A stretch of 37,387 nucleotides of DNA from Urechidicola sp. (GTDB lineage Bacteria > Bacteroidota > Bacteroidia > Flavobacteriales > Flavobacteriaceae): contig JAQRMW010000048.1 in NCBI GenBank assembly GCA_028599075.1, forward strand, positions 1 to 37,387. The letters are read 5' to 3'. A model generated the notes under the pieces. The model did not search any database, was not told where the DNA came from, and saw only the letters and a program-made list of their open reading frames with translations. Below are positions 3,225-37,387 of this stretch, piece by piece. The first letter of the stretch is position 1. The number at the start of each line of letters is the position of its first letter. The translations under genes and the position numbers were made by a program.

Positions 3225-3857
3225 ATGAAAAATATTATTCTTTTTGTACTAACAATTGTTTTGCTAATTTCTTGTGGGCAAGAAAAAGTGTTCAAAGAAA
3301 AATGGATAAAAGAGCAAGCTCCTAAAACATTTAAAGCACGTTTTGAAACCACTCAAGGAGATTTTGAAATTACTGCAATTAGGTCATTATCACCAAAGGG
3401 TGTGGATAGATTGTACAAACTTATTAAACACGATTTTTATACTGATATTGCTTTGTATAGAGTCTTGCCAAAATTTGTTGTTCAGTTTGGAATTCATGGA
3501 GATTCAATAGCGAATTCTAATTGGGAAAAGTATAAAATACCTGACGAACCTGTTTTACATAAAAACGATTCTATGACCATTGCTTTTGCAAGAGGTGGAG
3601 TAGAAACACGTACCACGCAGCTCTTTATCAACATGAAGGATAATCATAGATTAGACGAATTGGAATATTCTGGTGTAAAAGGATTTACAGTAATAGCAAA
3701 AGTAACAAGTGGCTTTGAAACCATCCACAAATTTTATGCAGGTTACGGACCAGCACCTGCAAACAGACAAGATTCTATATACATAAAAGGGAATGATTTT
3801 TTAAAACGGAATTACCCAAAGTTAGATTATATCAATAAAGCTTACATCATTAAATAA
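3225..3857 (+). CDS. Cyclophilin-type peptidyl-prolyl isomerase lipoprotein
   Basis: I place the start at the second ATG (3225), because it begins a clean lipoprotein signal: a Lys, a hydrophobic run, then LLISCGQ with the lipobox Cys. An upstream ATG at 3198 would put nine non-signal residues in front. The mature part (about 190 residues) has the cyclophilin fold features: FETTQGDFEITAIRSLSPKGVDRLYKL (shown in part as TQGDFEI), a YRVLPKFVVQFG block, and FAR-GGVETRTTQLFIN resembling the FARGG...NSQFFI region. It would act on proteins in the periplasm or at the outer membrane. The stop codon overlaps the start of the next gene (TAATG), so the two are translationally coupled. The isomerase activity is inferred from the family; several active-site positions differ from E. 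coli PpiA. Confidence 0.82.
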   Translation: MKNIILFVLTIVLLISCGQEKVFKEKWIKEQAPKTFKARFETTQGDFEITAIRSLSPKGVDRLYKLIKHDFYTDIALYRVLPKFVVQFGIHGDSIANSNWEKYKIPDEPVLHKNDSMTIAFARGGVETRTTQLFINMKDNHRLDELEYSGVKGFTVIAKVTSGFETIHKFYAGYGPAPANRQDSIYIKGNDFLKRNYPKLDYINKAYIIK

Positions 3858-4480
3858 TGCACACAATTTTAGACATAGATAATTGGAATAGGAAAGATCA
3901 TTTTAACTTTTTTAAACAATTAGAAGAACCTTTTTTTGGCGTTTGCGTCACTATTGATTGTACTACTGCTTTTAAAAAATCTAAAGTTGAAGGTCAATCT
4001 TTTTTCTTGTCCTATTTACACAAAACGCTAGTAGCTGTGAATAGTGTTGAATGTTTTCGCTACCGAATTTCTGGAGACGATATTTTTGTTTATGACCAAA
4101 TTGATGCCTCACCAACTATTGGAAGACCAGACGGCACTTTTGGTTTCTCGTACATGAAATATCATAAAGATTTTAAGAAATTTGAAATTGTAGCAAAAAA
4201 AGAAATCGAACGCGTTAGCAACAGTACAGGGCTTGAGGTTGCCGTTTCTGGAGAAAATGTTGTACATTTTTCTTCATTACCATGGTTAGATTTTACATCA
4301 TTCTCTCATGCGCGTAGTTTTACATTTCCAGATAGTGCACCTAAAATATCGTTTGGAAAAATGACAGAAAACAATGGAAAAAAATCATTTTCTGTTTCTA
4401 TTCATGTTCATCACGGACTTGTTGATGGCTTTCATGTAGGTCAGTTTGTTGAGAAGTTCCAAGAATTGATGAATGCCTAG
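3857..4480 (+). CDS. CatA-fold acetyltransferase (chloramphenicol acetyltransferase-like)
   Basis: 207 residues, matching the 205-220 of trimeric chloramphenicol acetyltransferase (CAT). The catalytic signature HHGLVDGFH near the C-terminus supplies His186 as base and Asp190 as the structural Asp. Family features include FRYRI (usually FRM/FRY), DQIDASPT and a beta-rich core. These enzymes transfer acyl groups from acyl-CoA to a hydroxyl on a small molecule. Many chromosomal flavobacterial members are not associated with resistance, and nothing here shows which substrate is used. It starts on the stop codon of the cyclophilin lipoprotein gene, and its last 83 bases overlap the 3' end of the convergent adenylating-enzyme gene. 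Confidence 0.85.
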   Translation: MHTILDIDNWNRKDHFNFFKQLEEPFFGVCVTIDCTTAFKKSKVEGQSFFLSYLHKTLVAVNSVECFRYRISGDDIFVYDQIDASPTIGRPDGTFGFSYMKYHKDFKKFEIVAKKEIERVSNSTGLEVAVSGENVVHFSSLPWLDFTSFSHARSFTFPDSAPKISFGKMTENNGKKSFSVSIHVHHGLVDGFHVGQFVEKFQELMNA

Positions 4481-33842: not shown

Positions 33843-34436
33843 TTATTTTTGTCTGGTTTTTAAAACTTCTACAATATCATTTAATTTAAACCCTTTGGCT
33901 TGCAACAAAATTAAGTAATGAAAAAGTAAATCTGCCGATTCATTTAAAAATAAATCAGCATCATTATCTTTCGCTTCAATCACAACCTCAACAGCTTCTT
34001 CACCAACTTTCTGTGCTATTTTATTGATTCCTTTTTTAAATAGTGATGCTACATAAGATGAATCATCTAAGTTTTCCTTTCTATTTTTAATAGTATTCTC
34101 TAATGTTGATAAAAATCCATATTCCTGAATATTATCTTTTCCCCAACAACTATCTGTTCCTTTATGACAGGTTGGTCCTTTCGGAATGGCTTGAATTAAC
34201 AACGTATCATTATCACAATCATTTTTAATAGAAACCAATTCTAAAAAGCTACCACTTTCTTCTCCTTTTGTCCAAAGTCGTTGTTTGCTTCTGCTAAAAA
34301 AAGTTACACTATTTGTTGTGATGGTTTTATCAAACGATTCTTGATTCATATAGCCCAACATCAACACATTCTTTGTACTTGCATCTTGAATGATGGCTGG
34401 TACTAGTCCTGTTTGCTTATCAAAATTTATATCCAT
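33843..34436 (-). CDS. hisI: Bifunctional phosphoribosyl-AMP cyclohydrolase / phosphoribosyl-ATP pyrophosphatase
   Basis: 197 residues from the ATG at 34436. The frame continues upstream to 34493 through low-complexity TTG/GTT-rich sequence that is not part of the family, so the internal ATG (MDINFDKQTGLVPAIIQD) is chosen. The N-terminal HisI domain has MLGYMNQESF, TFFSRSKQRLWTKGEESG and the zinc-binding GPTCHKGTDSCWG. The C-terminal HisE domain has KVGEEAVEVVIEAKD and ESADLLFHYLILL. It catalyses steps two and three of histidine synthesis. Last his gene of the operon. Confidence 0.96.
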   Translation of the reverse strand: MDINFDKQTGLVPAIIQDASTKNVLMLGYMNQESFDKTITTNSVTFFSRSKQRLWTKGEESGSFLELVSIKNDCDNDTLLIQAIPKGPTCHKGTDSCWGKDNIQEYGFLSTLENTIKNRKENLDDSSYVASLFKKGINKIAQKVGEEAVEVVIEAKDNDADLFLNESADLLFHYLILLQAKGFKLNDIVEVLKTRQK

Positions 34437-34511
34437 TTTTTTTTGTTGATTGTTGTCAGTTGATTGTTGCTGGTCTAAACTAATAACCAACAACCATTTT
34501 CTACCAACTAT

Positions 34512-35267
34512 TTATAATCTCACTTTAATTCCTTGGTTATTTAATTCATTTTTCAAATCTACTATCTCAATTTCTTTAAAGTGAAAAACACTCGCAGCTA
34601 ATGCAGCATCCGATTTTCCTTCTTTAAAAGTATCAACAAAATGCTGTATTGTTCCTGCACCACCACTTGCAATAATTGGAACATTTACTGTCTCTGATAA
34701 CTTTTTTAATGCATCGTTAGCGAACCCATCTTTTGTCCCATCATTGTTCATAGAGGTAAATAGTATCTCTCCTGCTCCGCGCTTTACCCCTTCTTTTACC
34801 CAATCAAACAAATTGAGTTCGGTTTCTACGCTACCACCAACCAAAAAAACTTTCCATTCTCCATCAATCAACTTTGCATCGACTGCCAATACAATACATT
34901 GACTCCCAAATTTATTCGCTAAATCATTAATCAATTGCGGATTTTTTACTGCAGATGAATTGATAGAAACTTTATCTGCTCCTGCCCTCAATAACATATT
35001 TACATCTTTTATGGATGAAATTCCTCCACCAACCGTAAACGGAATATTTACTTTTCGAGCAACTTTCTCTACCATATCTAACAAAGTTTTTCTCCGTTCT
35101 TTTGTGGCAGTAATGTCTAAAAACACCAATTCGTCAGACCCTTCTTTTGAATATCGCGAAGCCAATTCTACAGGATCTCCAGCATCCCTTAATCCCACAA
35201 AATTGACACCTTTTACGGTACGTCCATTTTTGATATCTAAACACGGTATGATTCTTTTAGTTAACAT
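34512..35267 (-). CDS. hisF: Imidazole glycerol phosphate synthase, cyclase subunit
   Basis: 251 residues, standard for HisF. The TIM barrel carries the catalytic Asp11 in [18 protein letters not shown] and the second Asp in VLAVDAK near residue 130. Phosphate-binding turns FTVGGGISS and ASGGAGT are intact. It uses ammonia from HisH to convert PRFAR into imidazole glycerol phosphate and AICAR. It is 75 bases upstream of hisIE and 70 bases downstream of hisA; that second spacer is filled with imperfect TTAGAAGTTA repeats. Confidence 0.97.
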
Positions 35268-35337: not shown

Positions 35338-36093
35338 CTAACTTTGATTTATTATATAATTTTCTAATTGCTTTAAGCTGATTCTGTTTTCATAAATAGC
35401 TTTTCCAATAATTGTCCCTTCACAACCTAAGGCTGCTAATTTTGGCAACTCTTCAAAGGTTGAAATACCTCCGGATGCAATTAGTTTTAACGGATGAGAT
35501 TTCTCACATTCGTTCGAAATGACACACTGCTCCAACATCTTTTTATACAAATCAAAAGAGGTACCCTGTAACATTCCATCTTTAGAAATATCAGTGCAAA
35601 TCACATATTCAACTCCTTCTTTTTGATAGTTCTGAACAAACGGAATCAATTCTTTGTCCGATTCTTCTAACCACCCACAAATAGCAATTTTTTCATTGTT
35701 GCCATCTGCTCCTAAAATAATTTTATCACTCCCATATTTTGCAATCCAACTTTTAAAAATTGCTGGATTCTTTACTGCGATACTTCCACCAGTAATTTGA
35801 TTTGCTCCAGATTCAAAAGCAATTTTTAAATCTTCGTCTGACTTCAAACCTCCTCCAAAATCAATCTTTAAATTGGTTTGAATTGCTATTTGCTCTAACA
35901 CTTTATGATTCACAATATGACTCGCTTTTGCTCCGTCTAAATCAACTAAATGTAAATACTCAATTCCATGCGCTTCAAATTCTTTGGCAACCTCAATTGG
36001 ATTTTCATTGTAAATAATTTTGGTATTGTAGTCGCCTTTTGAAAGACGTACACACTTACCTTCTATAATATCTATCGCTGGAATAATTCTCAT
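35338..36093 (-). CDS. hisA: Phosphoribosylformimino-5-aminoimidazole carboxamide ribotide isomerase
   Basis: 251 residues against roughly 240-246 for most HisA. The TIM barrel has the catalytic Asp8 in [15 protein letters not shown], the second Asp in [13 protein letters not shown] and phosphate turns DFGGGLKS and ASGGIST. It isomerises ProFAR to PRFAR. Residues about 189-200 ([11 protein letters not shown]) do not look like the family and are encoded by what appears to be a short interspersed repeat inserted in frame just before the KLIASGG strand. The ATG overlaps the hisH stop by one base (TAATG). The insertion sits in the loop before a barrel strand and may be tolerated. Confidence 0.95.
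35494..35527. repeat. Interspersed repeat within hisA
   Basis: On the minus strand this reads GTGTGTCATTTCGAACGAAT followed by GTGAGAAATCTCAT. The GTCATTTCGA...GAGAAATCTCA pattern matches a repeat I know as frequent between genes in flavobacterial genomes. Here it lies inside an open coding frame. The family assignment is from memory, and no second full copy is in the window. Confidence 0.6.
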
Positions 36094-36731
36094 TATAATT
36101 CAATAAAATTCTTTAATATCTGTTCTCCTACCTCACTGCTTTTTTCTGGATGAAACTGACATGCATAAAAATTATTCTTTTGAATTGCACCTGCATATTG
36201 CACTCCGTAATCAGTCAAAGCGATAGAAAATTCATTTTTAGGAACATAGTAACTATGCACATAATACACATACGAATCTGCGAGAATATTTTTAAACAAA
36301 TCTCCTTTTAAATGATTGATAACATTCCAACCAATCTGCGGCACTTTCAATTGCGTATCAAATTTCAACACATCAACAGGAAAAATATTTAAACAGTCTG
36401 TCTTGTTTTCTTCTGAAAAACGGCACATCAATTGCATGCCTAAACAAATGCCAAGCACAGGTTGTTTTAAGTTTGGAATTACTTTTCCCAATCCGAATCT
36501 CTTAATTTCTTCCATAGCACTTTTGGCCTCACCAACTCCAGGGAAAATCACCTTATCTGCTGACTTGATAACCTCGGCATTATTTGAACAAATAGCCGAA
36601 TAACCCAACCGTTCCAAAGCAAATTGAACCGACTTAACATTGCCTGCGCCATAATCTATAATCACTAAGCCTTCACCAACTCCACCAATGGGGGGAGGTT
36701 TTGATTCGCTATTTATTTTTTGTGTATTCAT
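36093..36731 (-). CDS. hisH: Imidazole glycerol phosphate synthase, glutaminase subunit
   Basis: 212 residues. The class I glutamine amidotransferase triad is visible: Cys96 in [10 protein letters not shown], and His194 and Glu196 in CQFHPEKSS. HisH usually begins within two or three residues of VIIDYGAGN, but here that motif starts at residue 23. The extra N-terminus contains [13 protein letters not shown], encoded by a repeat element. An alternative GTG start at codon 23 would remove the extension, leaving a 190-residue protein. It supplies ammonia to HisF, and its stop overlaps the hisA start. The dehydratase gene hisB upstream is truncated. Confidence 0.95.
36666..36701. repeat. C/G-rich interspersed repeat at the 5' end of hisH
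   Basis: On the minus strand it begins AAACCTCCCCCCATTGG and ends GTGAAGGCTTA. It matches the element at 36810-36845 at 24 of 36 positions when that copy is read on the plus strand. Both belong to the CCTCCC...GGGAGG class common in Bacteroidota. Confidence 0.65.
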
Positions 36732-36809: not shown

Positions 36810-36845
36810 AAACCCCTTCCCTTTGGGAAGGTTGGGATGGGCTTT
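36810..36845. repeat. C/G-rich interspersed repeat next to the hisB stop
   Basis: AAACCCCTTCCCTTTGGGAA onward to GGGCTTT. It is the second copy of the element at 36666-36701, in opposite orientation, and directly abuts the stop codon of the hisB remnant (36844-36846). Confidence 0.65.
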
Positions 36846-37273
36846 ATAACATACCTTTTGTTGATGGCAAAATCATTTTTTCTGAATCTCTTTTTACTGC
36901 CATTTTAATCGCTTTTGCAAAGGCTTTAAATATTCCTTCTATTTTGTGATGTTCATTATCACCTTCTGCCTTAATATTCAAGTTACATTTTGCCCCATCA
37001 GTAAATGATTTAAACAAATGCAAAAACATTTCTGTTGGCATTTTCCCAATCATTTCACGTTTAAAATCGGCATCCCAAACCAACCAATTTCTACCTCCAA
37101 AATCTATAGCAACTTGTGCTAAACAATCATCCATTGGTAAACAGAATCCATACCTCTCTATTCCTAACTTATCTCCAAGAGTAGTAGCAAAAACCTCACC
37201 CAATGCAATCATTGTATCTTCAATGGTGTGATGTTCATCAACCTCTAAATCGCCTTTTACTTTAATAATTAAA
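36844..37273 (-). pseudogene. hisB: Truncated imidazoleglycerol-phosphate dehydratase (HisB C-terminal part)
   Basis: About 143 codons of the dehydratase domain remain: [14 protein letters not shown] with its metal-binding His pair, [25 protein letters not shown], a second HH motif ([19 protein letters not shown]) and the normal ending LPSTKGML. Flavobacterial HisB is usually a two-domain protein of about 375 residues; the phosphatase half and the first 40 or so residues of the dehydratase are absent. Homology stops at 37273, where codons for LIIKVKG meet foreign DNA, and the frame closes at a stop 37297-37299. An ATG at 37212 could start a 122-residue piece, but this lacks the first His motif. 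The break coincides with the start of an insertion sequence. Confidence 0.88.
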
Positions 37274-37387
37274 GGTTCAAGATAGTTTAGGGAAATTTAT
37301 ATCTTTGTAAATTATTGAGAAACAATGAAGAACAAGTATATTTTCCGTTCCCGAATTTCTGAGAAGAAATTTAGACAAATTTTAAAG
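37274..37387 (+). mobile_element. Left end of an IS1595-like insertion sequence
   Basis: The interruption of hisB begins with GGTTCAAGATAG at 37274; IS1595-family ends commonly begin with GG. A -7-like box TATCTTTG lies at 37300-37307, 18 bases before the transposase ATG. The preceding eight bases (37266-37273, TAATTAAA) would be the target duplication if the other end were visible. The element runs off the window. Confidence 0.7.
37325..37387 (+). CDS. Transposase N-terminus, IS1595-like (partial)
   Basis: 21 codons from the ATG to the window end: MKNKYIFRSRISEKKFRQIL then K, open to the right. This matches my memory of the N-terminus of IS1595-type transposases from Bacteroidota (NKYxFRSxISExKFRxI), where a helix-turn-helix segment follows. 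Too little is present to see the catalytic residues. The direction is opposite to the his genes. Confidence 0.68.
   Translation, partial: MKNKYIFRSRISEKKFRQILK

Follow-up and report, generated by a model that had tools for sequence, protein, structure and literature searches.

We propose with high confidence that an insertion sequence of the IS1595 family has transposed into the dehydratase half of hisB in this Urechidicola strain, within a burst of insertions seen in its genome and in none of the relatives searched, and that histidine synthesis has most likely been lost. The window analysed (37,387 nucleotides) is the whole of contig C235, one of 291 contigs in an assembly of 3,355,316 bases (95.03% complete, 0.36% contamination), its right edge being the contig edge. 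The interruption is visible at that edge, and the other half of the gene was located on contig C252.

Interruption of hisB

The original prediction placed the end of HisB homology at 37273 and the start of an element at the next base, and both positions proved exact to the base by the PF00475 match and the sequence itself; the first bases of the element, from 37274, read GGTTCAAGATAG. The C-terminal piece of HisB in the window was 93% identical over 142 amino acids to HisB of the relative L129, and, of the 80 best records kept from at least 590, the top titled ones, Winogradskyella ludwigii and the Flavobacteriaceae MAG SW_4_35, were each 93% identical to it. Three things had been expected elsewhere, namely the missing portion of hisB, the element's far end and another copy of the flanking eight bases, and all were found at the start of C252. 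This contig begins with the far end of the element (1-116), which is followed by TAATTAAA (117-124), the remaining dehydratase, the phosphatase, hisC, hisD and hisG. The gene resumes exactly where it stops in the window: protein P0001 of C235 ends in ...NMDLI, and protein P0002 of C252 starts with LIIK.... Both pieces align to the one-piece HisB of L129 (85% identity for the C252 piece, with the window piece as given above), on which they overlap by the duplicated residues only. When C252 and C235 are joined, the gene order is hisG-D-C-B-H-A-F-IE, as in L130, L134 and L138, the three displayed loci that hold all of these genes. Of all the element ends collected, one left and one right carry the tag TAATTAAA; hisB has its parts on either side of one insertion with its target duplication. 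Both junctions, the duplication, the gene order and the end counts show that hisB is interrupted by a real insertion. We infer a complete copy of the element inside hisB; its interior was not found in the assembly. The features of the window are collected in Table 1.

Table 1. Features at the two edges of the window and in its his genes (window coordinates)
Feature	Position	Strand	Basis
Right end of another element copy, tag ATTAAAAA	1-117	-	left edge of window
hisIE, frame unbroken, uncertain start (comparison over 196 aa from an internal start)	33843-34493	-	reading and relative matches
hisF, 251 aa, unbroken frame	34512-35267	-	reading and relative matches
hisA, 251 aa, unbroken frame	35338-36093	-	reading and relative matches
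hisH, 212 aa, unbroken frame	36093-36731	-	reading and relative matches
hisB dehydratase C-terminal part, 142 aa, without its start	36844-37272	-	PF00475 positions 22-144, E 9.8e-48
8-base direct repeat TAATTAAA, target duplication; other copy C252:117-124	37266-37273	.	carried by a single left end (of 50) and a single right end (of 53)
Insertion sequence left end, 114 bases, truncated by contig edge	37274-37387	+	40/40 scored candidates match
TATCTTTG, putative -7 box for transposase	37300-37307	+	sequence read
Transposase start, encodes MKNKYIFRSRISEKKFRQILK	37325-37387	+	ATG frame open to contig end

A PF00475 profile search of the strain's own genome found two places only, the window piece (profile positions 21-144) and C252:121-183 (profile positions 1-21), and no second hisB in the 3.36-Mb, 95%-complete assembly; because the assembly is 95% complete, an unassembled second copy is possible. 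The split gene and the absence of another copy in the assembly support the earlier claim that hisB was lost by insertion. Relatives do carry intact copies: PF00475 matched in 11 of 13 other members of the genus, the two exceptions being 69% and 78% complete.

Identity of the element

The 40 matches to the 114-base left end (40 scored candidates) cover 113-114 bases at 100% identity. As predicted, TATCTTTG, which we take to be a Bacteroidetes-type -7 box, precedes an IS1595-like transposase frame whose stub is 77% identical over residues 3-24 to the transposase of L108. The right end of the element encodes KFFLHLKECEYRYNYRNKNLYISTLKLIKDNPLKLS and then a stop, and 25 of 36 residues (69%) at this C-terminal end match the end of the L113 transposase. 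L113, from genome G047, contains a complete 740-bp relative (1501-2240) with GGTTCAAGA ends and the 8-bp repeat TAAAATAA on both sides; its transposase of 230 amino acids scored 174.2 bits against NF033547 (cutoff 75) and 95.7 bits against PF12762 (cutoff 27). The DDE_Tnp_IS1595 domain was thus scored in the relative, the strain's own protein being seen at its two coding ends only. The element has terminal inverted repeats (left GGTTCAAGATAGTTTAGGG, right GGTTCAAGATAACTTAAGAGGG) whose first 11 bases are identical and which match at 15 of the first 20 positions ungapped. Continuation of the transposase frame beyond 37387, another expectation of the original prediction, was seen at the far C-terminal end, and the interior was not found in the assembly: the own genome gave no PF12762 match at E 0.001, and the relative's transposase matched only 50 N-terminal stubs in it. 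The L113 protein has no match to a zinc-finger family in Pfam at E 0.1, and the own protein is visible for about its first 22 and last 36 residues. Members of the IS1595 family are reported usually to have 8-bp target site duplications, and the IS1016 group within it is described as being without the N-terminal zinc-finger domain (PMC8101967). The assignment to a short IS1595-family insertion sequence is supported, and the element is probably about 740 bp long by analogy with L113.

The element was sought in other genomes as well. Among 397 family genomes (our own and 396 others, taken from a larger group; best two candidates scored in each), the left end matched at E 1e-8 in its own genome only. 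In a set of 60 relatives that includes the own genome (at most 14 candidates scored in each), G047 gave 11 distant matches and four other genomes gave short ones. The short matches, in G003, G011, G014 and G029, spanned 22-41 bases with E above 1e-4 and were discarded as chance. The G047 element, whose left end is also seen in L108, resembles ours in its terminal GGTTCAAGA, in having an 8-bp repeat and in its transposase (77% at the start, 69% at the end). Ten of its left ends match from the first base, but DNA identity over them is only 71-74%. Its host, with a genome of 1.9 Mb, belongs to the same order as the window's host but to a different family, and gave no PF00475 match. No copy was found in viral contigs with an exact 30-base pattern, or in plasmids and phages by distant blastn at E 1e-5.

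ISApl4, an IS1016-like member of the IS1595 family and one of the closest known systems, is described as a short element with A/T-rich 8-bp direct repeats and 39 copies in AP_123, with ends that map to multiple draft contigs and with the C-terminal motif ECEFRFN (PMC12561309). Our element is alike in shortness, in its A/T-rich 8-bp repeats, in its tens of copies and in having its ends on many draft contigs; at the C-terminus it has ECEYRYN in place of ECEFRFN, and a DESYFG motif is present in the relative L113. The two differ in their inverted repeats (GGTTCAAGATA... here, GGGGCTGTACTAGA in ISApl4) and in their hosts, and the interior is not seen in our case. In a literature search limited to titles, which does not bear on whether the element has been published, no title was found that names the element interrupting hisB.

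Copies, target duplications and contig breaks

Element ends were collected with exact 30- and 31-base patterns, from which diverged copies would escape, and 103 ends were obtained, 50 left and 53 right. The first 100 bases are identical in all 50 left ends and in 50 of the 53 right ends. Distinct left-end tags recurred at right ends most often when eight bases were compared (26/43, as against 14/41 for seven bases and 5/47 for nine), so that an 8-bp target duplication, as in the IS1595 family, was found. In offset windows the sharing of 8-base tags averaged 0.2 with a maximum of 2, compared with the 26 observed. Stricter nulls were added because the targets are AT-rich: shuffled tags gave a mean of 5.5 and a maximum of 10 against the same 26, and a position-composition model gave 8.4 left-right pairs expected by chance against 28 observed. 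No partner was found for 17 of 43 left and 25 of 51 right tags; one of the latter is ATTAAAAA, carried by the copy at the left edge of the window, which none of the 50 left ends shares. The insertion sites number 75 if every one of the 28 pairs is genuine, and more if some pairs arose by chance; counting every right end as a separate insertion gives at least 53. A burst of at least 53, and perhaps at least 75, near-identical insertions is thereby indicated in this genome. The near identity of the ends, together with a left-end match confined to the own genome among the 397, suggests that the lineage has undergone this burst recently.

None of the 103 ends is more than 224 bases away from the end of its contig. 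The element part plus the longest flank common to another copy came to 120 or 121 bases at most ends (35/50 left, 36/53 right), some sums being lowered by nine analysed stretches that end 4 to 11 bases before the contig end. Such stops are expected when a repeat halts an assembler whose word length is about 121. About 18% of the contig ends of the assembly (103/582) are attributable to this one repeated element, which is a clean case of a young insertion sequence expansion. Two right ends, L069 (C97, 1-189) and L106 (C290, 1-224), continue for about 72 and 106 bases, respectively, before passing into other sequence; these are perhaps nested elements, maybe other insertion sequences.

At 45 of the 103 ends the element abuts an open frame of 100 codons or more, compared with 70% for 1,030 points drawn at random from these flanks. 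Either selection or a preference for AT-rich targets may account for the scarcity of insertions in long frames, to which the his genes are exceptions. Separately, a gene that reads as pyruvate carboxylase-like appears to be split between L067 (C89) and L045 (C85), with 8-base tags that differ by one base. Pairing by tag is thus no proof by itself: some of the pairs may be spurious, or certain repeats may have been altered.

Other apparent lesions of the his operon

Contig C252 (L023) carries at 3258-4059 a hisG frame of 265 amino acids (PF01634 and PF08029) that starts beside another right end of the element; HisG of L129 has 286 amino acids at the same place. The element also interrupts hisG near its beginning, and the 8 bases adjoining it at this junction contain an in-frame stop. 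The corresponding codon is sense in 52 pattern matches among 80 relative loci, a pattern that cannot match a stop and shows that intact forms exist, not how frequent the stop is. By its 8-base tag the hisG insertion could be paired with none of the 50 left ends, and PF01634 found no credible second hisG in the assembly (a match on C31, at E 0.19, falls under the cutoff). In addition, the phosphatase part of hisB (164 amino acids) is read in another frame than the dehydratase part, with a run of A at 339-343 of L023. One frame of at least 350 codons covers hisB in 91 of 92 relative loci, the exception, L119, being truncated by a contig edge. The frame break may be an error, decay or coupled translation; a TTG where the parts overlap could serve as the start of the second.

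The genes downstream of hisB had been described as intact, and the frames of hisH, hisA, hisF and hisIE are indeed unbroken. For these four together with hisD and hisC, no internal stop was found, and at least 90% of the length aligned in 72-78 of 80 relative loci. These unbroken frames agree with the suggestion of a recent event, but that suggestion understates the damage: with a second copy in hisG and the frame break in hisB, the operon looks like a pathway in decay and not like one with a single lesion.

Alternative explanations

A contig edge or misjoin at a repeat had been raised as a competing explanation, in which hisB would be intact in the cell and the element wrongly attached. The contig edge is real and a consequence of the repeat; the window does end in a repeat whose ends all lie close to contig ends, and most of these obey the 120- or 121-base rule of a repeat graph. 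A misjoin, however, would not flank one gene on both sides with eight identical bases. By the position-wise composition of the 53 right-end tags, any one right end would read TAATTAAA with a probability of about 0.002, and the one that does so here is also joined to the remainder of hisB. Since both the duplication and the continuation of hisB match, we regard a misjoin as highly improbable. It is somewhat less improbable, though still unlikely, that the population is mixed, with the insertion in some cells and an intact hisB in others. The smallest contig among those examined, 3,007 bases, would suit a metagenome bin with a length cut. No uninterrupted hisB was found in the assembly, however, and an intact allele, if common, would normally have been assembled in one piece. 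The insertion is presumably carried by most of the cells.

The order of events is a separate matter. The operon may already have been dead through the hisB frame break or the hisG lesion when the element entered an unneeded hisB, a sequence of events to which we give a real but minority chance. The same element cuts hisG beside an in-frame stop, and the two parts of hisB are out of frame, whereas a single open frame spans both in 91 of 92 relative loci. Against this, miscalled bases in the A run could explain the frame break, or it is perhaps tolerated because of the possible TTG start; the other his frames are unbroken, so the loss does not look old. In the preferred explanation, transposition into hisB within the burst, a short IS1595-family element would have entered the dehydratase half of the gene and duplicated its 8-base target TAATTAAA. 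The insertion would belong to a burst that is present in the own genome and absent from the relatives searched, and an assembler stalling at the repeated element would have divided hisB between C235 and C252. With the further copy in hisG and the hisB frame break, histidine synthesis would most likely be lost.

Predicted consequences for histidine synthesis

HisG catalyses the first step of histidine synthesis, and this step and the imidazoleglycerol-phosphate dehydratase step of HisB are both required. Since no second credible copy of hisG or hisB was found, histidine auxotrophy is the best prediction and is likely, as judged from pathway knowledge and the missing second copies. The transposase is oriented opposite to the his genes, away from those downstream. 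No exact outward TAnnTTTG motif, which we assume to be the promoter consensus, was found in the 114 element bases nearest the genes or in 173 bases of hisB. With the transposase facing away and no such motif, reduced expression of hisH-A-F-IE is plausible.

When such an element inserts into a his gene, auxotrophy and polar effects are to be expected, and insertional inactivation of amino-acid biosynthesis genes is known; loss of a biosynthetic gene in this way is an ordinary, well-known kind of gene loss. What differs here is that one element occurs twice in one operon, amid a genome-wide burst. The finding gives an otherwise uncharacterised strain a testable nutritional prediction, namely a requirement for histidine. 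More tentatively, and at rather less than even probability, a newly acquired IS1595-type element with about 75 insertions may be eroding biosynthesis in one Flavobacteriaceae lineage, its his operon having been struck at least twice independently. If this is true, the lineage would recently have moved to a niche that supplies histidine, such as a host or a dense community, with the remnants of the pathway not yet deleted.
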